From positions 1-56,094 of the forward strand of contig CACWXP010000022.1 in NCBI GenBank assembly GCA_902764875.1: a DNA stretch of 56,094 bases, given 5' to 3'. Below are positions 7,455 through 47,917 of this stretch, in pieces. The DNA is from an uncultured Eubacteriales bacterium. Its GTDB lineage: Bacteria; Bacillota; Clostridia; Christensenellales; Aristaeellaceae. Under the pieces are notes generated by a model that was not told the origin of the DNA, searched no databases, and saw nothing but the letters and a program-made list of their open reading frames with translations. The translations under genes and the position numbers were made by a program. Each line of letters begins with the position of its first letter. Within the stretch, counting starts at the first letter, position 1.

Positions 7455-9863
7455 TCAGTCTCCGAAGGACATCTCGCCTTCGTCCAGTTCCTCTTCGCCT
7501 TCTTCGGCTTCTTCCTCGACCTCGGGAAGTCCGAAGTAGGCCGGAATGATGGCCTGGGACCAGGTCACGTTGTTGGTAATGTTGTAGTTCTGCAGGTAGT
7601 TGCTGTAGAAGTCGTAGTAAATGTTGGAATAGATCGGGATCGTGGGCAGCACGGTGTTGTACCGTTCCTGGAAGGTCATCCACTTCTCGACGTATTCGTA
7701 GTACGAGCCGGGCTCGGTCTTCCGCATGGAAACAGCATCGTCGAACAGGGCCTTGTCGTCGGAATAGGTGTTGTTCCAGACCTTGTGGCCGACGGTATCG
7801 TCCGTGGAATAGGTGATGGACGGGTCCACGATGACGTGGAAGTTCGTGGCCAGATAGATCATGTCCGTGGTGCGTTCCTTCTCGCGGTAGTAGTACCGGA
7901 GCAGTTCTTCCATGGGTTCCGGAACGAACTCAAGCTTGATGCCGACCGCGTTCAGGTTGTCCAGGAACATGCCTTCTTCCTGCATGAACTCGATCATATG
8001 ATTACCCTTGGGATACATCATCTTCAGTTCCAGCGGCACAATTTCATCGCCCAGTTTCTTGCAGCGCACGTCGTCCACGCCGGCCTTATAGGCGTTGCCT
8101 TCTTTGTTCAGCACCCAGCCGCACTTGTCCAGCAGGCGGTTGGCTTCGTCCAGATCCACCGTGTAGTGCACCAGCAGCGTGTTGCCTTCATCGTCCTGCC
8201 AGCGCTGACGGAGCATATCCCATGCAGCAATGCATGCTTCATATTCCGCGTCAGTTTCATAGTACATGAACTTCATCTTTTTCTTGCGCTTGTTTTCTTC
8301 CTCTTCGGCCTCGGTAATCTTGGTGCCGAGGGCGTCGATAGAGGGCAGGAAGTTCACGGGATAATTGATCCGGCCGGTCACCAGCTGGTATTCCCACTGT
8401 TCAAGGCCGAAGTAGCCGTCCATGACCAGGCCGTTGCCGCCGCAGTATTTCTGGGTCAGTCCTTCGCGGTCCATGCAGTAGGCGATCGCCTGACGGACTT
8501 CCATGTCGTTGACTGTGGGCCATTCATACGTGAAGGTCAGGAAGGAAAGGCCGATGCGGGGATAGTTCTGGGCCTGGCATCCTTCTTCGCCGCGCAGGGC
8601 AAAGCCCTTCTGGATCGTTTCGTCATAGGTGATCTTGTTGATCAGATGAAGTTCTTCTTCCGCCAGCTGTTCGATGCAGGTGTCATTATCCGCCACCGTG
8701 AAGGCAATCTTTTCGATCGTGGGCTTCACCAGGTAGATCGGTTCGTCGCCCACGCCGTCGCCGTCCGTATCCCGGAGGATGTCGTTGCCGAACTCATCCG
8801 TGTCGGTCACCACTTTGCCGTGATCCATGGCCTTCTGCCACACGTCGCTGATCACGGGTTCACCGTCTTCGCCGGGCAGATTGTTTTCCATCCAGGCGCC
8901 CTTGAAGTAGGGGTTGATTTCATAGTGTCCGGTCACGCCGTCCCAGCTCTTGATCACATAGGGGCCGGAAACGACAGCCGGGAATGTGTTGTAGCCTGTT
9001 GCAGGATCCAGGATCGTCTTCTTCAGCAGTTCCGCCGTGTAGATCGGCTTGTCGCCGCCGTCCGCGTTCACGATCTTGATGCCCAGGGGATCGCCGGTTT
9101 CCGGATCCACATAGCCGCTCACAACCTTGCATCCGGGAGCGATCACGTCGATCGGATACGGAACGGTCATCAGAAGACCCAACTCGAAGAAGTAAGGCAG
9201 GAAGTCCGCATCCAGGAAGAAGCGGATCTGATGATCGCTCAGTACGGTAACGCCGGACAGATAATCCACGTCGCCTTCGGGGCCGGTCGCCAGTTCTTCG
9301 CCGGCAATGATCTTCCGGCGGGTGTTGATGTAGTCCTTGTAGCCCATCAGGTGCTCGGCGCGGTAAATCTTGCCGCCGATCTGTTCAATTTCCGGGCTCA
9401 TCATAAGCAGCAGGGAGAAAGCATAGTCCCAGGCCGTGATCGGGTTGCCGTTGGAATAGAACAGGTTGTCGGCAATCGTCAGTGTGTAGATCTTGTTGCC
9501 GAGATCATCCGTAAAAACTTCGGCCTGACGCACAACGCTGGGATCCAGCACATAGGTGCCCTGGTTCTGGTCCCAGTTGATCAGGTTGTATCCGTGAATC
9601 AGCGCGCGCACGTCGATATCCGCCGTGTTGTTGCCGAACATTTCGGTGAAGAAATCGCCGTTGGTGATGGTCGGGTGTCCGACGATCAGTTCATCCGGAA
9701 ACTCGATTTCGATTTCCGGTTCCTCTGTGGCTTCCGCGGCTTCAAGGCCCTCGGCAGCTTCCGGGACGGGCGTTTCCGTGGGTTCTTCCGCCACTGCCGG
9801 CATCCAGGTCAGCAGCAGTACGGCGGTCAGCACCATGCACAGGATTCTTTGCAGCTTGTTCAC
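7455..9863 (-). CDS. extracellular solute-binding protein, family 5 (oligopeptide ABC type)
   Basis: 802 residues, longer than the usual 500-600 for OppA/DppA-type binding proteins. Signal peptide 1-25 ends AVA-EEP with no lipobox cysteine. A short Glu/Pro linker follows. The SBP_bac_5 fold is recognised from FTDDLGNKIYTLTIADNLFYSNGNP-like strands, the DYAFSLLLMM helix region, MEVRQAIAYCMDREGL and the late TVLPTIPIYSNIYYDFYS segment. Inserts include DTDGDGVGDE, resembling a calcium-binding loop, and a charged stretch KITEAEEEENKRKKK. The C-terminal 25 residues are almost all Glu/Asp. It should deliver peptides or similar solutes to an ABC importer, but no permease or ATPase gene is adjacent. 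Without a lipobox its attachment is unclear. Start ATG at 9863. Confidence 0.88.
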   Translation of the reverse strand: MNKLQRILCMVLTAVLLLTWMPAVAEEPTETPVPEAAEGLEAAEATEEPEIEIEFPDELIVGHPTITNGDFFTEMFGNNTADIDVRALIHGYNLINWDQNQGTYVLDPSVVRQAEVFTDDLGNKIYTLTIADNLFYSNGNPITAWDYAFSLLLMMSPEIEQIGGKIYRAEHLMGYKDYINTRRKIIAGEELATGPEGDVDYLSGVTVLSDHQIRFFLDADFLPYFFELGLLMTVPYPIDVIAPGCKVVSGYVDPETGDPLGIKIVNADGGDKPIYTAELLKKTILDPATGYNTFPAVVSGPYVIKSWDGVTGHYEINPYFKGAWMENNLPGEDGEPVISDVWQKAMDHGKVVTDTDEFGNDILRDTDGDGVGDEPIYLVKPTIEKIAFTVADNDTCIEQLAEEELHLINKITYDETIQKGFALRGEEGCQAQNYPRIGLSFLTFTYEWPTVNDMEVRQAIAYCMDREGLTQKYCGGNGLVMDGYFGLEQWEYQLVTGRINYPVNFLPSIDALGTKITEAEEEENKRKKKMKFMYYETDAEYEACIAAWDMLRQRWQDDEGNTLLVHYTVDLDEANRLLDKCGWVLNKEGNAYKAGVDDVRCKKLGDEIVPLELKMMYPKGNHMIEFMQEEGMFLDNLNAVGIKLEFVPEPMEELLRYYYREKERTTDMIYLATNFHVIVDPSITYSTDDTVGHKVWNNTYSDDKALFDDAVSMRKTEPGSYYEYVEKWMTFQERYNTVLPTIPIYSNIYYDFYSNYLQNYNITNNVTWSQAIIPAYFGLPEVEEEAEEGEEELDEGEMSFGD

Positions 9864-9955
9864 GTTGATCAGACCCTTTCCTCATTTAATGTCTTAAAGT
9901 GAACTGTACGGACCCTCCCAGCAGGGAGAGGTCCCGCACAGCAGGAATCCGGAGA

Positions 9956-11872
9956 TTAGTCGAAGCAGTCACCCACGTGGTTGATCAGAATCTCGCCGCC
10001 CAGTGCGGTTTCGTATTCTTCAAAGATGAACCACATATCGCCTGGAACCTTGGCCTGCGGCATCCACTCAGGAATCTTCGGAACATTCGTCGCGTGGTTG
10101 TAGAAGACGACGCTGTTGCCGCTCACCTCGGTGCCGGCCAGCACATAGCCGACGGACTCTTCTTCCTTCCAGGAGTAGGTCACGTCCTCGCCGTTCAGCT
10201 TCGTGGGCAGGTTGTCCACCGTCAGGGACCAGTCGTTGGCCGCGGTCAGCATATAGATCTTGCCGGTGGGCAGCAGGGTAACAGCTATGTTCTTCGGCCG
10301 CAAATTCCGCTCGTTGTCGTTGTCATCCCAGATTTTGTAAACCGAAGCCGTCGTGGTTTCCGGATTGTAGTCGTTGGTCACGAAGTATCCGTTCACGCTG
10401 CCGTTGTACCAGGCCACGGGGTTTTCATTGATGGTGTATTTGATTTCCTTGCGGCCTTTGTCGTATCGGGGCATATTTGCAAACACGTACTGCCAGCCTT
10501 CATCCGCGGTCAGCGCATGGGAAGCAACCGTCGTGCCGTTAGCCTGCAGGTTCACGGTGATGGAGCCCGGGCGGTTGCCGTCTCTGTTGCCGTTGTCATT
10601 CCAGATCTTGGTCACCGGAATATTGATGCTTTCGTCGTCAAAGCCGGGTTTGTATTCGTTGTACAGCTTGGCGATCGCTTCCTTGTTTCCTTCCACAAGG
10701 GTAGCGACGCCGGTCGTGCTGTCGCTCTGCAGATTATATTTCCTGACCAGGCCTTCCGCGTTCGTTTCAAACACGACATACGTCCCGGGAAGCAGATCAC
10801 CGATTTTAAGCTGGCCGTTCTCGTCAAACTGACCGTAGGTAAAGGTTTTGTCATAGTCCGGCCCGAGAACCCGGAAAGTCAGGTTTTTGTAGTTGTCTTC
10901 GGGGTTATAGCCTTCTTCCGCTGTATAGGTTTCTTCCTTCTTCCAGATAAACCCGAAGCTCAGCGCCTTTTCTTCCCCATCCTTCACATATACGCCGTCC
11001 GCGACGTTGCTGCCGTCTGGATCAATCACATAGCCCGGAATGAGGCCCGAAGCGTTCTGATCCTCCACCACATAGGCGCCGGCCAGCACTTCGCCGAAGT
11101 CGTAGGATCCGCCGGCCACGTCGTTGTAGAACAGTTCCTTTGAGAAACCGTAAGGCCCGGAAACCGTCAGATGCAGACCGCTGATGTCTGCTCCGGCCGG
11201 CGGATTCAGACTTGTCGTCAGCTTAAGAGAGCCTTTTTCCAGGGTGTAAACAACTTTATTGCCCGATACACTGACCGTATATCCCGGAACTTCATCCGCA
11301 GAAATGCTGTAGACGATCTCTTCCGCTCTTTGGCTTTCTTTTCTGAACGTGTAGAGATTGCTCCACTTGATACCGGTTGTGGCTGTATTCAGATTGACCG
11401 GTACAGAGGCTCTGCAGGGCTTCCCGTCTGCCAGGAGTGTGATTCCGGGGGCGACGGCAGGCCGGGTTCCGTATGCGTTCTCCTCGTCTGCCCATTCGGC
11501 TGTAGCTTCGAAGTACGTCTCGGTTCCCTTCCCGTCAGAGGTGGCCTTTGAAAGCCTGTATGTCACAACCTTCACGCCGTCAGAGCCGCTCTCTGATGTT
11601 ACGTAGCCGGGAACAGTTGGAATGCTCCAGTCCGTACCGGATACCGCGGTAATGGTTCCGGTCCAGTTGTTGTCTTTATCTAGCGTAACGGATGCTCCGC
11701 CATACGAGATATCGACGCTATCCGGACGAAGAGCGTCGTAGTTGTTGTCGTCCTCCCACAGGACGGTGACCAGCTTGATGTCTTCCTCCGCGAAAGCGGG
11801 CAGCGTAAGGCATCCGCATGCCAGCGCCAGGATGCACAGGATGGAAAGGATTCGCAGCAGCCTCTGTTTCAT
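9956..11872 (-). CDS. secreted Cna-B-domain protein
   Basis: 638 residues. The signal peptide (1-28) ends PAFA-EED; an ALAC stretch at 16-19 makes a lipoprotein reading possible but weak. Repeated beta-sandwich modules follow. Two near the C-terminus are clear Cna-B domains beginning VTKIWNDNGNRDGNRPGSITVNL and ASVYKIWDDNDNERNLRPKNIAV, each with the Lys that normally forms an intramolecular isopeptide bond. The N-terminal module (VTVLWEDDNNYDALRPDSVDI) is a third, diverged copy. Middle segments resemble collagen-adhesin stalk domains (GSYDFGEVLAGAYVV). No LPXTG or membrane tail is present; the chain ends EILINHVGDCFD. Probably a cell-surface or secreted stalk protein. Confidence 0.82.
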   Translation of the reverse strand: MKQRLLRILSILCILALACGCLTLPAFAEEDIKLVTVLWEDDNNYDALRPDSVDISYGGASVTLDKDNNWTGTITAVSGTDWSIPTVPGYVTSESGSDGVKVVTYRLSKATSDGKGTETYFEATAEWADEENAYGTRPAVAPGITLLADGKPCRASVPVNLNTATTGIKWSNLYTFRKESQRAEEIVYSISADEVPGYTVSVSGNKVVYTLEKGSLKLTTSLNPPAGADISGLHLTVSGPYGFSKELFYNDVAGGSYDFGEVLAGAYVVEDQNASGLIPGYVIDPDGSNVADGVYVKDGEEKALSFGFIWKKEETYTAEEGYNPEDNYKNLTFRVLGPDYDKTFTYGQFDENGQLKIGDLLPGTYVVFETNAEGLVRKYNLQSDSTTGVATLVEGNKEAIAKLYNEYKPGFDDESINIPVTKIWNDNGNRDGNRPGSITVNLQANGTTVASHALTADEGWQYVFANMPRYDKGRKEIKYTINENPVAWYNGSVNGYFVTNDYNPETTTASVYKIWDDNDNERNLRPKNIAVTLLPTGKIYMLTAANDWSLTVDNLPTKLNGEDVTYSWKEEESVGYVLAGTEVSGNSVVFYNHATNVPKIPEWMPQAKVPGDMWFIFEEYETALGGEILINHVGDCFD

Positions 11873-36602: not shown

Positions 36603-36633
36603 ACAATGTTGATTAATGATTGGAGGAACCGTT

Positions 36634-38706
36634 GTGAAAGGATTCACTCGCTGGCTGGTGAAGCATCGGGCGCTGGTCATCATCGTCTGCCTGCTCCTGC
36701 TGATCCCGTCCTGGCTTGGGATGACTGCCACCCGAACCAAGTACGACCTGTTGTATTATCTGCCCCAGGATCTGGAGACCGTCAGGGGCCAGAATATTCT
36801 CCTGGAGGATTTCGGCAAAGGCGCTTTCTCACTGCTCGTCACGGAGGGCATGACCGTCCGGGAGCAGGAGAATCTGGAAGCCGCCGTCCGTGAAATTCCC
36901 CATGTGGACGCCGTCATCGGCTACGCTTCTGCAACCAAGGGCCTCATTCCCGTAGAGATCATTCCGGAAAACATCCGGCAGATGTTCAGCCGCGGAGACT
37001 GCATGCTGTCCGCCGTGTTCTTCGATGAGGGCTCTTCCTCCGAAGAAACGATGGAGGCCATTCAGCAGATCCGCAAAGTTGCCGGCGAAAAATGCTTCGT
37101 ATCCGGCCTGTCGGCGGTCGTCACCGATACCAAGCAGCTGGTGGAGGATCAGGAAGCGATCTATGTCGGCATCGCCGTGGCCCTGTGCGCGGTGGTCCTG
37201 ATGATCACCATGGACAGCTTCCTCCTCCCCCTGATCTTTCTGGCGTGCATCGGCGTGTCCGTTCTCTGGAACATGGGCACCAACTATTTCATGGGCGAGA
37301 TCAGCTATATCACCAAGGCCGTGGCCGCCGTGCTCCAGCTGGGCGTCACCCTGGATTACAGCATCTTCCTCTGGCACAGCTACAAGGAACAGAAATCGCT
37401 CACGCAGGATAAGGATGAAGCAATGGTCGCCGCCATTCATCAGACCTTCACCTCCATCCTCGGTTCCAGCCTCACCACCATCGCCGGCTTCGTGTCCATC
37501 TGCTTCATGAGCTTCACCCTCGGCAAGGACCTGGGCATCGTCATGAGCAAAGGCGTGGTGCTGGGCCTGCTGAACACGGTGGTGCTCCTGCCCTGCGTCA
37601 TCCGGGTGCTGGATACCGCCATCGAAAAGACCAGCCACAAACCCATCCTGCCGAACGTGGGCGGCATCGGACACTTTGTGGTGAAGCACTATAAAGCCCT
37701 CTGTGTCATCCTGGCGCTGATGATCTTCCCCGCCTTCTACGGCTACGGCAATGTAAAGGTTTATTATGACATGAGCAAGGTCATGCCACAGGATCTGCAG
37801 TCTGTCATCGCCAATAAGAAGCTCGAGGAAACCTTCGATATGTCCACGACCCACCTGCTCCTGGTGGACAGCGATGTCTCCCAGAAGGACGTCCGCAAAA
37901 TGACGGACGAAATGAAGCAGGTGGACGGCGTCACCGAAGTTTTCGGCCTCGACAGCTTTCTGGGCGCCGATATCCCGGAATCCATTCTGCCGCCCGAGGC
38001 CCTGTCCCTGGTCAAAAGCGACCGCTACCAGCTGATGCTGATCAATTCCTCTTATGTCATCTCCTCCGACGAGGTCAACCGCCAGATCGACACCCTGAAC
38101 GGGATTCTCAAGAAGTATGACAAAGGCGGTATGCTGATCGGCGAGGCTCCCTGCACAAAGGATCTGATCGCCTGCACGGATCACGACTTCACCGTTGTCA
38201 GCCTGATCTCCATCATCGCGATTTTTGTGATCATTCTCCTGGTCCAGAAGTCCATCTCCCTGCCGGTGCTGCTGGTGGCCGTCATCGAGCTGGCCATCGC
38301 CGCCAACCTCTGCATTCCCTATTTCACCGGAACGGAGCTGCCCTTCGTGGGCCCGATTCTGATCTCGACGATCCAGCTGGGCGCCACCGTGGACTACGCC
38401 ATCCTGATGACCACCCGCTACAAGCAGAACCGGATATCCGGTCTGGGCAAAAAGGAAGCCGTGGAAAAAGCTGTTTCCTCCGCCGCCCAGAGCATTCTGG
38501 TCAGCGGTCTGGGTTTCTTCGCCGCCACCTACGGCGTCGGCCTGTATTCCAATGTGGATATCATCTCCAGCATGTGCCGGCTGATCGCCCGCGGCGCCCT
38601 GCTCAGCGTGGCGGTGGTGCTGCTGCTCCTGCCTGCCGTGCTGCTGCTCCTGGATAAACTCATTGTGCATACCACCCTGGATCTGCGCAAATGCGCCGAT
38701 CAGTAA
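36634..38706 (+). CDS. MMPL/RND-type membrane exporter
   Basis: 690 residues from the GTG at 36634, seven bases after GGAGG; an ATG at 36616 overlaps that site. Two repeats each have one leading helix, an extracytoplasmic loop (about 40-180 and 375-500) and a cluster of five helices. Asp-containing helix segments such as LQLGVTLDYSIFLWHSYKEQ and IQLGATVDYAILMTTRYKQNR mark the proton-relay Asp-Tyr of the family. It exports lipids, siderophores or drugs; the cargo is unknown. The gene after it, 34 bp on, encodes a secreted LxxG-repeat protein, a usual partner. Confidence 0.93.
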   Translation: MKGFTRWLVKHRALVIIVCLLLLIPSWLGMTATRTKYDLLYYLPQDLETVRGQNILLEDFGKGAFSLLVTEGMTVREQENLEAAVREIPHVDAVIGYASATKGLIPVEIIPENIRQMFSRGDCMLSAVFFDEGSSSEETMEAIQQIRKVAGEKCFVSGLSAVVTDTKQLVEDQEAIYVGIAVALCAVVLMITMDSFLLPLIFLACIGVSVLWNMGTNYFMGEISYITKAVAAVLQLGVTLDYSIFLWHSYKEQKSLTQDKDEAMVAAIHQTFTSILGSSLTTIAGFVSICFMSFTLGKDLGIVMSKGVVLGLLNTVVLLPCVIRVLDTAIEKTSHKPILPNVGGIGHFVVKHYKALCVILALMIFPAFYGYGNVKVYYDMSKVMPQDLQSVIANKKLEETFDMSTTHLLLVDSDVSQKDVRKMTDEMKQVDGVTEVFGLDSFLGADIPESILPPEALSLVKSDRYQLMLINSSYVISSDEVNRQIDTLNGILKKYDKGGMLIGEAPCTKDLIACTDHDFTVVSLISIIAIFVIILLVQKSISLPVLLVAVIELAIAANLCIPYFTGTELPFVGPILISTIQLGATVDYAILMTTRYKQNRISGLGKKEAVEKAVSSAAQSILVSGLGFFAATYGVGLYSNVDIISSMCRLIARGALLSVAVVLLLLPAVLLLLDKLIVHTTLDLRKCADQ

Positions 38707-38740
38707 AGCATTCAATCAATCCGGAAAGGAAGGATTCTCC

Positions 38741-40297
38741 ATGTTGAAAAAAGTCGTTTCCCTTCTTTGCGCCCTGGCCCTGCTGCTGACCTGCTCCGCT
38801 GCCCTGGCGGAAAGCACCAAGCATGAGCGCGTCTATATCGTTGCCTCCCCCGACGGCGCCGTGAAAAGCCTCACGGACAACGTCCGTCTGGAAAACGCCG
38901 ACAACGCGGATGAAATCACGGATCGCACCCTGCTCACGGCTATTGAAAACGTCAGCGGCGACGAGACCTTCACCCTCGACGGGGAAACCCTCGTCTGGAA
39001 GGCAAACGGCCGGGATATCACCTATCAGGGAACCTCGGACAAAACGCCCGCCCTGCTTCCCGTGATGACTCTCACCCTGGACGGCGCGGAAATCTCTGCC
39101 AAAGATCTGAAGGAGAAAGCCGGCGACGCAACCCTGACCGTCACGTATCAGGCCGCGGAAGCGGTTCCCGCCCTGGCTGTCACCGCGATGCTCCTGCCGG
39201 AAAAGGGCGTTTCGGATCTGAAGCTGGAAAACGCCGCGGTACTGACGGTCATGGGCCGTCAGGTGCTGGTGGGCTGGGCCGTCCCCGGCATGGACGCTTC
39301 CCTGAACCTCCCCGCCTCTTTCTCCGCCTCCTTCCGTGCCGATCACGCGGACCTGGGCTGGGCCATGACCCTCGCCACCTCCGATCCCATTGATGCGGCC
39401 TGCAAAGAGCTCGACACCCGAATCGGTGCGGATCTGACCGCCGAAATCAATGAGATTACGACCCTGCTCACCGCCCTGAAGGAGGGCAAAGATCTTCCCG
39501 AAACCACCGGGAAAACCAAGGACATCATTTCCAAGATCAAACAGCTGAACGCCGGCCTCACTACGCTGGATTCCGGCGCCGCCACCCTGGCCGAAAGCGC
39601 CAAATCCCTGTCCGACGGCGCCGCTTCCGTCAACACCGGCGCGGCCCAATTGAAGGAAGGCGCCGCCTCCCTGGACGCCGGTCTCGCCGCCCTGACGGAG
39701 AACAGCGAAGCTCTGAACGCCGGCGCATCCCAGCTCTTTGACAGCATTCTCGCTGCCGCCAATGATCAGCTTGCATCCGCCGGTCTCGACGCCCTGGGCG
39801 TAACCCTGCCCCCGCTGACCAAAGACAACTACGCGGAAGTGCTGGACGGCCTTATCGCGAAGATCCCCGCCGCCCTGAAGCCCGCCGCGGATCAGCTCGC
39901 CGCCCTGAAGACCCAGCTGGATCAGGTGAACACCTTTGTCTCCGGCCTGCAGACCTACACCGGCGGTGTGGACACGGCCGCAGCCGGCGCGAAAACCCTT
40001 TCCGAAGGCGCGGCAACCCTGGCAACCGGCGCGTCTCAGCTTTCCGGCGGCGCCATGGCCCTGTATATCGGTGCCGGCGCCCTGCAAACCACCGGAACCC
40101 AGACCCTGAAGGACAGCATTCTCGGTGCCGAAAAGGAAGCAGCGGAAAAGCTGCTGCCCCTCCTGCAGGATCAGGTGGCAAACGTCCTTCGTGTCTATGA
40201 CGAAACCCGTGCGAATGTCCGGAATACCGGTTACGATCTCCGTCCGGAAGCCATGAAGACCGTCACCGTCTGCATCATCCGCACGGATCTGCAGTAA
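38741..40297 (+). CDS. secreted protein with xxxLxxG heptad repeats
   Basis: 518 residues from the ATG at 38741 (GGAAGG upstream). Signal peptide ends AALA-EST. Residues 30-240 are a beta-rich region; from about 245 on comes a helical stalk with heptads such as LAESAKSLSDGAASVNTGA and LSEGAATLATGASQLSGGA, the TIGR03057-type repeat also seen in YhgE/Pip and MMPL accessory proteins. It ends without a membrane anchor. Likely an extracytoplasmic partner of the exporter upstream. A terminator follows. Confidence 0.85.
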   Translation: MLKKVVSLLCALALLLTCSAALAESTKHERVYIVASPDGAVKSLTDNVRLENADNADEITDRTLLTAIENVSGDETFTLDGETLVWKANGRDITYQGTSDKTPALLPVMTLTLDGAEISAKDLKEKAGDATLTVTYQAAEAVPALAVTAMLLPEKGVSDLKLENAAVLTVMGRQVLVGWAVPGMDASLNLPASFSASFRADHADLGWAMTLATSDPIDAACKELDTRIGADLTAEINEITTLLTALKEGKDLPETTGKTKDIISKIKQLNAGLTTLDSGAATLAESAKSLSDGAASVNTGAAQLKEGAASLDAGLAALTENSEALNAGASQLFDSILAAANDQLASAGLDALGVTLPPLTKDNYAEVLDGLIAKIPAALKPAADQLAALKTQLDQVNTFVSGLQTYTGGVDTAAAGAKTLSEGAATLATGASQLSGGAMALYIGAGALQTTGTQTLKDSILGAEKEAAEKLLPLLQDQVANVLRVYDETRANVRNTGYDLRPEAMKTVTVCIIRTDLQ

Positions 40298-40326
40298 AGT
40301 TTCTTCCCGCCGGAAGGCGGAACCCC

Positions 40327-40357
40327 AGGCCGTCGATGAAAAGACGGCCTTTTTTTG
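40327..40357 (+). terminator. terminator of the MMPL operon
   Basis: AGGCCGTC (40327-40334) pairs with GACGGCCT (40343-40350), followed by seven T. Confidence 0.88.
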
Positions 40358-40388
40358 TTCTCCTGCCCAGAAAACGGAAAAGAATCCG

Positions 40389-40418
40389 TTGCCACAGCCG
40401 TCGGTTTTATGGTATAAT
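40389..40418 (+). promoter_or_regulatory. orphan promoter directed at the degV 3' end
   Basis: TTGCCA (40389-40394), 18 nt, TATAAT (40413-40418) with extended TGG before it. No plus-strand gene follows; transcription would run antisense into the minus-strand degV gene at 40502. Confidence 0.55.
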
Positions 40419-40485
40419 ATCAAAGTTTGACAATGAATTAAACATCTTCTCCCGGAATTCTGACATTTTACCTGCTCTTCGGATA

Positions 40486-40513
40486 TATCCCAATCCAAAG
40501 CCTAAAATCCGAT
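40486..40513. repeat. short heptamer repeat overlapping the degV stop
   Basis: TATCCCA, ATCCAAA, GCCTAAA, ATCCGAT in 7-bp phase; the third unit contains the stop codon (40502-40504). Shorter and less regular than the other arrays. Confidence 0.5.
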
Positions 40514-41335
40514 AATCAGTCCCCGCCGCTCCGCATAAAAACTGTCAAGCCCGCGGGTTTCCATCAGCGTCACCTTCACGCCCCGGAAGGCTTCTTCAAT
40601 CTGCTCCTTCAGTGCCTGGGCGCATTTGAGGTTCTGGCAGTGGCTGATCAAGATTTCCTTCCCGTTGGTGCCGATCTTCTTCATTTCGTCCACCAGGAAC
40701 CGAATCATGCTCTTGTCGCCCCGGGCTTTTCCGCGAATGGCGATCTCGCCCTCGTCGCTGCCGATACCGATGCCCCAGAAGCCCAGATGCCCGGCGATAA
40801 AGCCGATCAAGCGGCTGACCCGCCCTGCTTTGATCAGATTCCGGTAGGAAGCCAGGGCGAACACCGTGTGAATCCCATCCGCTTCCCGGTTCAGGCCTTT
40901 TTCGATCTCGTCAAAAGCCTTCCCTTCCAGGATCATCTCCCGGGCCTTCAGCACCAGCATGGCGACTTCCGGTCCCGTGGCCTTGCTGTCGATCACGGCG
41001 ATCTGTTTCCCGGGATCCTCTTCCTGCAGCATCTGCTTCGCCGTGCAGGCGCTGTTATAGCTGCCGGACAATGTGCTGGAAATGGTAAAGGCCAGCACCG
41101 GCCCCTCCGGCGCGAACTTTTCCCGCCAGTCCTCCGGCGAGGGGCATGAGGTCTGCGCCAGTTCATCGTGGTTTTCGTTGGCTGTCAGCATTTCCTCCAC
41201 GGGCATGCCTTCGTCGTCAATATATTCCTTGTCCCCAATCCGGATGGTAAAGGGAATCGTTGCAAAATCAAAAACGCCTTCGCCCCCTTCAAGGGTGTGC
41301 AGGTCACAGCTGGTATCTGATACGATGTGCCACAT
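40502..41335 (-). CDS. DegV family fatty-acid-binding protein (second copy)
   Basis: 277 residues, diverged from the copy at 20953. HIVSDTSCDLHTLEGGEGVF, then TSCPSPEDWREKF, LAFTISSTLSGSYNSA (acyl-headgroup loop), ALASYRNLIKAGRVSRLIG. FakB-like role in exogenous fatty-acid use. It stands alone on the minus strand, 123 bp after the pyrophosphatase gene, with AGGAGGTGATC directly before the ATG. Confidence 0.93.
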   Translation of the reverse strand: MWHIVSDTSCDLHTLEGGEGVFDFATIPFTIRIGDKEYIDDEGMPVEEMLTANENHDELAQTSCPSPEDWREKFAPEGPVLAFTISSTLSGSYNSACTAKQMLQEEDPGKQIAVIDSKATGPEVAMLVLKAREMILEGKAFDEIEKGLNREADGIHTVFALASYRNLIKAGRVSRLIGFIAGHLGFWGIGIGSDEGEIAIRGKARGDKSMIRFLVDEMKKIGTNGKEILISHCQNLKCAQALKEQIEEAFRGVKVTLMETRGLDSFYAERRGLIIGF

Positions 41336-44351: not shown

Positions 44352-44379
44352 GGCATCCACCTACCGGAAGGAGATCCTC

Positions 44380-47300
44380 ATGAGCAATTCGACGATCTTG
44401 CAAGTCAGCGCCCGTCTGGACTCGGACAAGCAGTGGTCCACACTCTTCGACATTCTGCGCGACTACGGCGAGGCATTAACCGCCGTCTGGCTGAAAGGCG
44501 AAAAGGAGCTCTCCCTTTCCTTTGCCGAAATGACCCGCCGGGCCGACGATTATGCCGCCTGGCTCACGGAGAATACGCCGGAAGGCGGCTGGATCGCCAT
44601 TTCCGTCGATACCTGCCCCAACTGGCCCACCCTGTTCTGGGGCGTCATCCGCTCCGGGCACAATGCCCTCCTGCTCGACGCTTCCGCCACCGACACCATG
44701 ACCCAGAGTCTCCTGGAGGAAGCGGGTTGCAAGGTCATCATCTCCCGCAAGCCCCGCGGCCTCTCCGGCGATATTAAGCAGATCGACTACAAGGCCGTGG
44801 CCGACGCGCCGCGCACCATCGGGTTCAATCCCGTCTGGGGCGACTATGTCGCCATGTGCACCAGCGGCACCACCGGCCGCAGCCGTATCTTTGCCTATTC
44901 CGGCGCCGCCGTCTGCGAGCAGGCCCTGGCCGCCGTCCAGATCCACAGCGAAAACAAGCGCATCATCCGGGACGACAACCGCGGCCGCAAGGCCCTGGCC
45001 TTCCTGCCCTTCCACCATGTGCTGGGCTTCATGGCCAACGTGATCCTGGTGCCCTTCTGCGGCGCCACCAACGTCTACCTTCCGGACCGGACGCCCAATT
45101 CCATTATGAACGTCTGCCGCCATTTCCCGCCCAATCTGCTGATTGTGGTGCCGCTGGTGGGCAATAATCTGGTCAAATCCCTGAATAAATCCGTGAAGAA
45201 GGAAAAACCCTACAGGCGCTGGCTGTACAGGGCTTCCACCGGCGTTTCCCTCAGTGTCCAGTCCGTGGCCCCGTCCTTCGGCCTCCGCCTGGCGCAGCAG
45301 CGCCTCTTCGCGGCCATTGATGCCAAATTGCTGGGCAACGAAGTGGACGTGGTCATCCTGGGCGGAAGTCACACCCCCGCCGAAACCCTCCGTTCCCTGA
45401 ACGCCCTGGGCTATTATACCGTCAACGGTTTCGGCATGACCGAAACCGCCATCAACGGCTTTGAAACCTCCCTCAGCCTGCGCAAGCGGCTGAACGGTTC
45501 CGTCGGTTCCTCCCTGGGCGCCGCCCAGTACCGGGTGAACGCCGACGAAGGCGTCAAAACCGGCGAACTGCAAATCCGCGGCGCCGGCATCCATTCCGGC
45601 CGCGTAGTGCAGGGAGAGGTGCTTCCGCCCGACACGCTGGAAGACGGCTGGTTCCCCACCGGCGACGTCGCCAAGATGGACGATACCGGCCGGGTCTTCA
45701 TCAAGGGCCGCCTGAAGGATGTCATCATCAACGAATCCGGTGAAAACGTCTATCCTGACGATCTGGAGGATTCCTTCTCCGCCCTGCCCGGTGTTGAACA
45801 GATGTGCATCGTCGGTTTCCGCCGCAGGCGGAAGGACCGGAACGAGGACGTAGTCCTTGTCCTGAACGTCGGCGAAAACTATACCGATACCAGCTACCTG
45901 AATGGTCTGGCCGCCCGCATCGCGGCCATCAACACCCGTCTGCCCCTCAACGCGCATATCGACCGCGCGCTGGTCACGCCCATGTCCCTTCCCCTCGTCA
46001 GCGGCATCAAGGTCAAGCGCATCGAGCTGAAGCGCCTCTGGGAGGAAAAGGAACTCATCTATCGCGAACTGGACCTGAAGGCCCAGAACGCCGGTGCCGA
46101 GATTTCCGCCATCGAAAAAGAGCATGCCAAGTCCGCCGTGCAGGATGAAATCCGCAAAAAGGTCCGGGCCATGTATGCCGAGGCCCTGGACATCCCGGAA
46201 AAGGAGATTTCCGATAAGGCTAATTTCATTGAAGATCTCCAGGGCGACAGCCTCCAGGTCCTTTCCATCGCGCTGAAAGCCGAGGAGGAATGGGGCATCA
46301 CCATTCCCGCCGAGGAATACGGCCGCTGCGCCACCGTTGAAAGCATGTCCCGGGTGGTGGAAGAACTCCTGAACGGAACCTCCGACGCCGGCAAGCCGAA
46401 GGAGCGCGTCCCTGTCCGGCCGATCACCCGTTTCGAGGATTCCCCCGAATACCTGCATTTCCTTGAGCGCCAGAAGGCTCTGGTGGGCAATGGCGACAAC
46501 CCTTATTTCGTCGCCCATGAATCTCCCCTGCTGGACACGGGCATCGTCGACGGCAAAGAGATTCTCGAGTTCGGAAGCTACAACTACGTCGGCATGTCCG
46601 GCCGCAAGGAAGTCAAGGACGCCGCCAAGGCCGCCATCGATAAATACGGCACCAGTGCCTCCGGCAGCCGCCTGCTGGCCGGCGAAAAGATGATCCATAA
46701 GGAACTGGAAGCAGAGCTGGCCGATTGGAAGCACACCGAGGACGCCATCGTCTGCGTCGGCGGCCATTCCACCAACGTCACCTTCGTCGGCAACTTCTGC
46801 GGAAAGAACGACCTGATTCTTTACGACGCCCTGGCCCACAACTCCATCGAGCAGGGCTGCAAGCTGTCCGACGCGACGTCCCGTCCCTTCCCCCACAGCG
46901 ACGTGGCCGCCCTCGAAACCATCCTGAAGAGCCAGCGGGCCTACTTTGAAAAGGTACTGATCGTCATCGAAGGCGCTTACAGCATGGACGGCGATATCGC
47001 CCCCGTGCCGGATTTCGTTCGGGTCAAGAAGGAATACGGCTGCTTCCTCATGGTGGACGAGGCCCACAGTGCCTGCGTCATCGGTGAGCACGGCGGCGGC
47101 GTGGACGAGTATTTCGGCCTGAACGGCGACGATATCGATATCAAGTACGGCACCCTGTCCAAGGGTCTGGGCACCTGCGGCGGCTATCTGGCCGGCAAAA
47201 AGTGCCTGATCGATTACCTGCGCTATAACATGCCCGGTTTCGTTTTCTCTGTGGGCATTTCCCCGGCGCTGGCCGCCGGTTCCCTGGCCGCCATCCGAAC

Positions 47301-47649
47301 CCTTCGCTCCCATCCGGAAATCATGGAGCATCTGCGCACGGCGATCCGCTCTTTCACCGAGAGCGCCAAACGCCGCCACCTGGATATCTGCCTGGCCGGC
47401 GAAACCGCCGTCCTTCCCGTTCTCGTCGGCAAGGACGAGGATGCCTGGCTGCTCTCCAACGAGCTGAAAAAGCGGGGCGTCAGCGTCCCGCCGGCCATGT
47501 ATCCCGCCGTACCCAAGGGCAAGGCCCGCCTCCGCTTCTGCGTGATCAGCGAGCACAAGCCCGAACAGATCGAAAAAGCCCTGGATATTCTCGAAGCCAC
47601 CGCCAAGGAATTCGATATCGAACTCCCCAGAAGAAATTACGATTCGTAA
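44380..47649 (+). CDS. trimodular adenylation / acyl-carrier / alpha-oxoamine synthase enzyme
   Basis: 1089 residues from the ATG at 44380 (AAGGAG upstream). Residues ~5-560: class I adenylate-forming domain, with CTSGTTGRSRIFAY at ~158, NGFGMTETAING, GRLKDVIINESGENVYPDDLED and a SGIKVKR hinge lysine near 542. Residues ~590-680: acyl-carrier domain with DLQGDSLQ, phosphopantetheine Ser624. Residues ~710-1085: fold-type I PLP alpha-oxoamine synthase (BioF/KBL/SPT group), with FGSYNYVGMSG, the GTSASGSRLLAG loop, MVDEAHSACVIG and TLSKGLG with PLP Lys928. Family logic: the first domain loads an acyl group on the carrier, and the last condenses it with an amino acid, losing CO2, to give an aminoketone. 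Substrates are unknown. A 45-codon membrane peptide follows. No phosphopantetheinyl transferase is nearby. Confidence 0.88.
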   Translation: MSNSTILQVSARLDSDKQWSTLFDILRDYGEALTAVWLKGEKELSLSFAEMTRRADDYAAWLTENTPEGGWIAISVDTCPNWPTLFWGVIRSGHNALLLDASATDTMTQSLLEEAGCKVIISRKPRGLSGDIKQIDYKAVADAPRTIGFNPVWGDYVAMCTSGTTGRSRIFAYSGAAVCEQALAAVQIHSENKRIIRDDNRGRKALAFLPFHHVLGFMANVILVPFCGATNVYLPDRTPNSIMNVCRHFPPNLLIVVPLVGNNLVKSLNKSVKKEKPYRRWLYRASTGVSLSVQSVAPSFGLRLAQQRLFAAIDAKLLGNEVDVVILGGSHTPAETLRSLNALGYYTVNGFGMTETAINGFETSLSLRKRLNGSVGSSLGAAQYRVNADEGVKTGELQIRGAGIHSGRVVQGEVLPPDTLEDGWFPTGDVAKMDDTGRVFIKGRLKDVIINESGENVYPDDLEDSFSALPGVEQMCIVGFRRRRKDRNEDVVLVLNVGENYTDTSYLNGLAARIAAINTRLPLNAHIDRALVTPMSLPLVSGIKVKRIELKRLWEEKELIYRELDLKAQNAGAEISAIEKEHAKSAVQDEIRKKVRAMYAEALDIPEKEISDKANFIEDLQGDSLQVLSIALKAEEEWGITIPAEEYGRCATVESMSRVVEELLNGTSDAGKPKERVPVRPITRFEDSPEYLHFLERQKALVGNGDNPYFVAHESPLLDTGIVDGKEILEFGSYNYVGMSGRKEVKDAAKAAIDKYGTSASGSRLLAGEKMIHKELEAELADWKHTEDAIVCVGGHSTNVTFVGNFCGKNDLILYDALAHNSIEQGCKLSDATSRPFPHSDVAALETILKSQRAYFEKVLIVIEGAYSMDGDIAPVPDFVRVKKEYGCFLMVDEAHSACVIGEHGGGVDEYFGLNGDDIDIKYGTLSKGLGTCGGYLAGKKCLIDYLRYNMPGFVFSVGISPALAAGSLAAIRTLRSHPEIMEHLRTAIRSFTESAKRRHLDICLAGETAVLPVLVGKDEDAWLLSNELKKRGVSVPPAMYPAVPKGKARLRFCVISEHKPEQIEKALDILEATAKEFDIELPRRNYDS

Positions 47650-47722
47650 TAGCTTCTTCTTTCCCCCGGCCGGAGCGTGAAACTCCTGGCCTCGAACTTT
47701 CATTTCAAAGGAGGCCTTCTTT

Positions 47723-47860
47723 ATGGAAACAGGCGTCGTCGTAGCAATCTCCGTGGTTCTCTTTATTGCAATCTTTGCCGTACTGGTCTGCGTCTTCGGC
47801 AGTGTAGCCGGAACCGTCAGCGCCATCAAGCACACCAACGACGAGGATACCGACGCGTAA
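47723..47860 (+). CDS. 45-residue membrane peptide
   Basis: ATG at 47723 with AAAGGAGG upstream; the product has one hydrophobic helix (VVVAISVVLFIAIFAVLVCV), a Gly/Ser turn and a polar tail HTNDEDTDA. It lies 73 bp after the trimodular gene on the same strand, with an intervening hairpin (GGCC/GGCC) but no T-run, so cotranscription is likely. The strong ribosome site and clean helix argue for a real gene. Function unknown; it may assist or anchor the upstream pathway. Confidence 0.65.
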   Translation: METGVVVAISVVLFIAIFAVLVCVFGSVAGTVSAIKHTNDEDTDA

Positions 47861-47887: not shown

Positions 47888-47917
47888 TTGACATGCGGGG
47901 CCGGCCTCTGCTATAAT
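47888..47917 (+). promoter_or_regulatory. promoter of the tRNA pair
   Basis: TTGACA (47888-47893), 18 nt, TATAAT (47912-47917): consensus in both boxes, start about 17 nt before the tRNA. Confidence 0.85.

Follow-up and report, generated by a model that had tools for sequence, protein, structure and literature searches.

What does an enzyme make that carries an acid-activating domain, a carrier and an oxoamine synthase on one chain, and which gene works with it? The question is raised by a gene on contig CACWXP010000022.1 of an uncultured Eubacteriales bacterium (family Aristaeellaceae; assembly GCA_902764875.1), analysed here as one stretch of 56,094 nucleotides, hereafter the window. On balance, we favour the reading that its protein is a self-loading long-chain-base synthase, with a short-chain dehydrogenase/reductase (SDR) reducing its 3-keto product, for a sphingolipid-like lipid. 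Three intact domains on one chain and the kinship of the pyridoxal phosphate (PLP) domain are observed directly. The gene and its parts are as follows.

44366..44373, + strand: ribosome-binding site ggaaggag, 5' of the synthase ATG (from the sequence)
44380..47649, + strand: single-chain adenylation-carrier-oxoamine synthase, 1089 amino acids (open reading frame, Pfam and alignment)
44500..45600, + strand: AMP-binding (adenylation) domain, residues 41-407 (Pfam PF00501, 116.9 bits)
46009..46011, + strand: codon of K544, the adenylation lysine in the motif GIKVKR (61/61 fused proteins)
46159..46356, + strand: carrier (PP-binding) domain, residues 594-659 (Pfam PF00550, 39.3 bits)
46249..46251, + strand: codon of S624, the phosphopantetheine attachment serine (61/61 fused proteins)
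46558..47589, + strand: oxoamine synthase (PLP) domain, residues 727-1070 (Pfam PF00155, Aminotran_1_2, 151.4 bits; tree)
47161..47163, + strand: codon of K928, the PLP lysine (61/61 fused and 19/19 stand-alone proteins)

Each of the three domains (AMP-binding, PP-binding and Aminotran_1_2) exceeds its curated Pfam cut-off, and they follow one another on a single chain in the order A-CP-PLP2 (adenylation, carrier, PLP domain), which bears out what the initial annotation had read from the letters. The C-terminal lobe of the adenylation part follows the AMP-binding domain up to about residue 570, and homology of the PLP part with stand-alone oxoamine synthases starts at about residue 675-680. 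Across 61 aligned fused sequences, all different (the window protein plus 60 relatives, two of the set with a cut N-terminus), the residues E355, D429, K544, S624, D893, H896, K928 and R1052 are each found in all 61, while the nucleotide loop varies in other columns, such as G166, which is Gly in 40/61. The set characteristic of alpha-oxoamine synthases (H820, D893, H896, K928 and R1052) is complete in 61/61 and across the reference rows, and no fused protein sampled contains an internal stop. S624 and K928 had been placed correctly by the initial annotation; its hinge lysine at about 542 is K544, whose motif we take to be the A10 motif of adenylation domains. An inactive adenylation or PLP domain, which would have spoken against its proposal, was looked for, and the key residues of both are kept in all 61 fused proteins. 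Three intact domains on one chain also back its suggestion that a single protein could activate an acid, bind it as a thioester and then join it to an amino acid, as far as sequence can indicate a capability.

Because these three functions lie on one chain and an SDR gene neighbours it in much of the family, we propose a route from acid activation to a sphingoid base. The adenylation domain would form a fatty acyl-adenylate, the acyl group would pass to S624 of the carrier as a thioester, and the PLP domain would couple it, with loss of CO2, to an amino acid (serine being the likeliest) and so give a 3-keto long-chain base. Reduction of this base to the amino alcohol of a sphingolipid-like membrane lipid would then fall to a ketoreductase-type SDR, here presumably that encoded at G000:C20:49103-49957. 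Such a working mode may be likened to that of AasR, AcpR and serine palmitoyltransferase (SPT) in Caulobacter, or of SgaA and SgaB in Pseudomonas, with the parts joined. The chemistry of the domains is well supported; the length of the chain, the amino acid and the nature of the end product are those that we infer.

The kinship of the PLP domain was examined in a tree of 72 rows, SgaB not being among them. The domains of 22 fused proteins, 19 stand-alone proteins and two chains of an acyl carrier protein (ACP) with an alpha-oxoamine synthase (AONS) form one group of 43 rows (support 100/99). Its sister (100/99) consists of a Streptomyces chain of ketosynthase, acyltransferase, ACP and AONS (KS-AT-ACP-AONS) and five proteobacterial oxoamine synthases that adjoin polyketide synthase (PKS)-type genes in PKS or capsule loci; when these loci were opened, a PKS-type gene lay 5' of the relative in 5/5 and an SDR just 3' in 2/5. 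The Bacteroides-type SPT, KBL, BioF, 5-aminolevulinate synthase (ALAS) and 19 other clostridial oxoamine synthases all fall outside both groups. The synthase is placed apart from the Bacteroides-type SPT row and beside PKS-partnered enzymes whose setting is like that of SgaB. Within the 43 rows, 18 of the 19 stand-alone forms nest inside the fused group, along with two fused rows; this nesting suggests that the stand-alone forms arose from the fused form through loss of the adenylation-carrier (A-ACP) part.

The candidate partner emerged from the search for the architecture and its neighbours in relatives that the initial annotation had recommended, which returned fusions in the family and the order. 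Where 850 bases or more of upstream sequence were available (three loci with too little were excluded), 21 of the 28 fused loci at no more than 60% identity have an SDR gene directly 5' of the synthase and on its strand. The gap is at most a few tens of bases, about 200 in one case, and in L129 about 18 bases separate the SDR stop from the synthase start. On another contig, the genome of the window carries a single clear orthologue (the gene named above, 279 bits; next best 70), and the SDR is present too in the six same-genus genomes within the family sample. The earlier statement that biotin, heme and tailoring genes are missing therefore holds for the immediate surroundings of the window copy, and fails for tailoring, given the upstream SDR of the relatives and the orthologue elsewhere in this genome. 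With synthase-positive genomes defined by a best match of 1e-130 or lower, an SDR threshold of 1e-45 and the window's own genome left out, the SDR is present in 66/77 synthase-positive versus 7/72 synthase-negative genomes; by genus, 20 have both, 3 the synthase only, 2 the SDR only and 25 neither (p = 8e-9). Its catalytic Ser, Tyr and Lys are kept in 25/25. The NCBIfam model KdsR (3-ketodihydrosphingosine reductase, KDS reductase) is the best equivalog for the SDR of the window genome (223 bits) and tops the list for those of L134 (215) and L126 (229; L014 encodes an identical copy), while for the L129 SDR it comes second (193) behind an oxidoreductase subfamily model (202); for two other SDRs of the window genome it lies outside the best 25 models. 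We dropped the KdsR match as proof of function, since SDRs in unrelated settings score higher. As the model alone proves little, the argument for a 3-keto-base reductase rests on linkage and co-occurrence.

Several observations weigh against a long-chain-base synthase with an SDR partner. The synthase stays below the curated SPT scores (NF047600, 292.3 bits with a cut-off of 640; NF047599, 270.2 of 500; NF047603, 234.1 of 670), and its top-scoring NCBIfam model is bioF (338 bits), above SPT (292). SgaB, the enzyme to which the setting is compared, is missing from the tree. The tree program marks the branches of ALAS, SPT, BioF, KBL and the Streptomyces chain as long, so the deeper joins are unsure. 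The synthase lacks an adjacent SDR in 26 loci with 75% identity or more, in three with 67-69% and in 7/28 with 60% or less, and 11 of the 77 synthase genomes lack it. The KdsR cut-off of 400 is reached by no SDR examined, and SDRs away from the synthase in three genomes (G185, G489 and G604) score 252-280 bits on this model, above the adjacent ones (193-229). In three other families, f161 and f171 among them, this SDR was not found near the synthase at 1e-10 (nine loci, partial ones included), and the best SDRs elsewhere in f161 and f171 are just 28-36% identical. No ceramide-type N-acyltransferase or head-group gene linked to the SDR was found; the recurring neighbours in 23 SDR loci, considered as further lipid genes, appeared unrelated when judged by eye. 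In f161 and f171, the position of the SDR upstream of the synthase or A-ACP chain is taken, as judged by eye, by a PHP-like gene (L215-L217, L222) or an iron alcohol dehydrogenase-like gene (L218, L219).

A match at 1e-30 occurs in 115 of 150 genomes from the family to which the window belongs, many of the matches being ordinary oxoamine synthases; in 46 the match is near full-length and unbroken, and in two (G094 and G134) it is in two pieces within a single frame. At the order level (297 genomes), seven genomes beyond this family have full-length fusions at 35-46% identity, in f161 and f171; at the phylum level (398 genomes), there was no additional one among the matches listed, and partial chains appeared, ACP-AONS in G185 and G489 (55-57%) and A-ACP in G461 (40%). 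The named relatives are metagenome-assembled genomes titled Clostridia or Clostridiales bacterium, many of rumen and gut origin, and the synthase is retained in 23/50 genera of one family. None of 552 matched plasmid records covers 80% of the whole synthase query; for the A-ACP part 1/27 does, at just 21% identity, and the top plasmid match is a Planktothrix PKS (H1). Stand-alone oxoamine synthases at 62-68% identity (L069-L088) occur in 24 of the 150 family genomes, with one further cut short; the row of L083 is probably a broken-up fused gene on a fragmentary contig. The idea that the A-ACP half is encoded apart from the stand-alone synthase was rejected because no orthologue was found in 17/17 genomes searched, where the best match reaches 65.5 bits versus 402 in G461 and 994 in G132. 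No open reading frame family recurs across 18 stand-alone loci. In a locus of another family (L118), an ACP-AONS gene (9144-10718) follows a CDP-alcohol phosphatidyltransferase gene (8490-9056) and precedes, by eye, an ArsR-type regulator-like gene; a head-group link is possible there.

A different amino acid with otherwise the same chemistry and a lipid product is an unlikely but serious competitor: alanine or glycine would give 1-deoxy bases, and cysteate would give capnine, for sulfonolipids. No sequence feature fixes the amino acid, and the Alistipes cysteate acyl-ACP transferase 7u7h, which works from an ACP thioester (PMC10191378), is among the structural neighbours of an AlphaFold2 model of the synthase. 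This model has a mean pLDDT of 79.8 and a pTM of 0.51, the latter making its domain arrangement unreliable; one part resembles oxoamine synthases (ThAOS, KBL, SPT) and the other MatB and FadD13, the adenylation domain being nearest by fold and sequence to MatB, MenE and FadD13 with no curated equivalog reached. Position 734 is Tyr in 49/49 rows of the carrier-type group versus Asn in the SPT, KBL, BioF and ALAS references, but Tyr also occurs in 7/19 other clostridial rows. On the other side, the sequence matches a Sphingobacterium SPT with 211 bits and the cysteate enzyme 28eh with only 162, and SgaB, PKS-partnered like the sister group, nearly excludes alanine and glycine (PMC12134224).

A secreted small molecule (an aminoketone, a pyrazine or a signal of the quorum type), in line with the signal that the initial annotation had allowed for, we regard as improbable. 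Natural-product enzymes share the architecture, some of the tabulated chains being parts of PKS or nonribosomal peptide synthetase systems (PMC3870968), and in most fused loci we recognised no other biosynthetic genes nearby; yet the SDR partner and its genus-level co-occurrence indicate that the ketone gets reduced, retention across nearly half the genera of one family fits a lipid better than a niche metabolite, and CqsA-type models score 161 bits, far under the BioF and SPT types. Very improbable is a metabolic enzyme of the usual BioF or KBL kind to which a loading module has been added, for which the bioF model and the promiscuous ThAOS, the closest solved sequence, might speak: the curated scores are not reached (338.3 of 426.45 bits for BioF; 292.2 of 460 for KBL, glycine C-acetyltransferase), the tree sets the synthase apart from the BioF and KBL references and the 19 other clostridial enzymes, and no biotin or threonine genes were seen in its scanned neighbours.

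A small gene follows the synthase.

47723..47860, + strand: membrane micropeptide gene, 45 amino acids (orthologue comparison; probably not part of the system)

It has its own ribosome site, and in all pairs of six orthologues the differences lie mostly at third codon positions, most clearly without L039; judged from this pattern, it is a real gene. The micropeptide was found in 24/45 genomes of the genus. In ten genus loci opened (L165-L174), it follows the synthase in two and lies elsewhere, with varied neighbours, in eight; in L165, L166 and L169, it stands by eye beside a MATE transporter-like gene. That the peptide anchors or exports the product, as had been suggested, is hardly credible and was rejected on its mobile location: the 73-nucleotide gap on the same strand with no terminator-like site seen between, and adjacency in five relatives (L039, L040, L041, L057 and L060) at 88-89% synthase identity, are set against the eight loci and against the fused loci with less than 88% identity, none of which was found to have it behind the synthase. 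It is probably a conserved small membrane protein and an unrelated neighbour.

Around the synthase lie galE, a pyrophosphatase gene and a DegV protein gene on the opposite strand; 3' of it come tRNA-Gln, tRNA-Glu and a gene for an NAGPA-type protein, and no biotin or heme genes turned up when ten proteins of the window were scanned. At 47888-47917, just 5' of the two tRNA genes, stands a perfect promoter, TTGACA-18-TATAAT, whose -10 element is preceded by TG. At 36616-41335, 3-8 kb 5' of the synthase, are genes for an MMPL transporter, an xxxLxxG-repeat protein and a DegV protein of the fatty-acid-binding type, to which no link is shown.

Returning to the long-chain-base synthase, we tentatively extend it to a wider picture, somewhat less assured than the enzymatic assignment, in which Clostridia of rumen and gut use the single-chain synthase and the SDR to produce a sphingolipid-like membrane lipid, and some lineages later dropped the loading module and use another acyl source. 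Sphingolipids from bacteria affect the immunity and metabolism of the host, and those of the gut are credited mainly to Bacteroidota (PMC9278070, PMC10626005). If the picture is true, producers of sphingolipid-type lipids in animals are undercounted, the Clostridia of rumen and gut metagenomes included, and searches with SPT models, whose cut-offs are not reached, would miss them. With three functions in one protein, the enzyme would also offer a compact means of producing aminoketones, and its family illustrates the joining and loss of a loading module on an oxoamine synthase.

Among known systems is an oxoamine synthase of a rhizobial capsule locus (L141), which we take to be RkpG-type: its PLP domain is 41% identical, with a PKS-type gene 5' and an SDR 3', but it stands alone, in a capsule locus, without an adenylation domain. 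The CP-CP-PLP2 chains of the B6VRS3 type are presumably PigH-type, and PigH-type chains belong to a pyrrole pigment pathway. In B6VRS3, a carrier is fused ahead of the oxoamine synthase domain, as in the clostridial synthase, without an adenylation domain (PMC3870968). Chains of the A-CP-PLP2, CP-PLP2 and CP-CP-PLP2 types were tabulated by Milano et al. 2013 (Table 2, PMC3870968) with no product assigned; together with the Streptomyces KS-AT-ACP-AONS chain, they contradict the earlier statement that oxoamine synthases act alone or with separate carriers. The claim of an undescribed system is accordingly too wide for the architecture, published in 2013. We found no paper on the clostridial A-CP-PLP2 architecture, or on such a lipid pathway in Clostridia, in the open-access literature, which misses most subscription journals. 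Microscilla marina A1ZVW4 and Blastopirellula marina A3ZWL3 have the same domain order with an oxoamine-synthase PLP domain, the likeness being one of domain order; they belong to other phyla, and the table gives no partner gene (PMC3870968).

Compared by function, AasR, AcpR and SPT of Caulobacter and other Rhodobacteria perform the same three tasks: a special ACP is charged by an acyl-ACP synthetase and then serves as the preferred acyl donor of SPT (PMC9386255). These are three proteins versus one clostridial chain, and the available part of that text does not mention a fusion. SgaB of Pseudomonas fluorescens MYb115 is a demonstrated serine palmitoyltransferase, near-exclusive for serine and PKS-fed, and SgaC is an SDR proposed as the KDS reductase for its product (PMC12134224). 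There an iterative PKS builds the chain and SgaB is separate, whereas the clostridial adenylation domain would activate a free acid; SgaA, SgaB and SgaC resemble the clostridial pair in joining a carrier-fed oxoamine synthase with an SDR, and loci that look like theirs make up the sister group in the tree.

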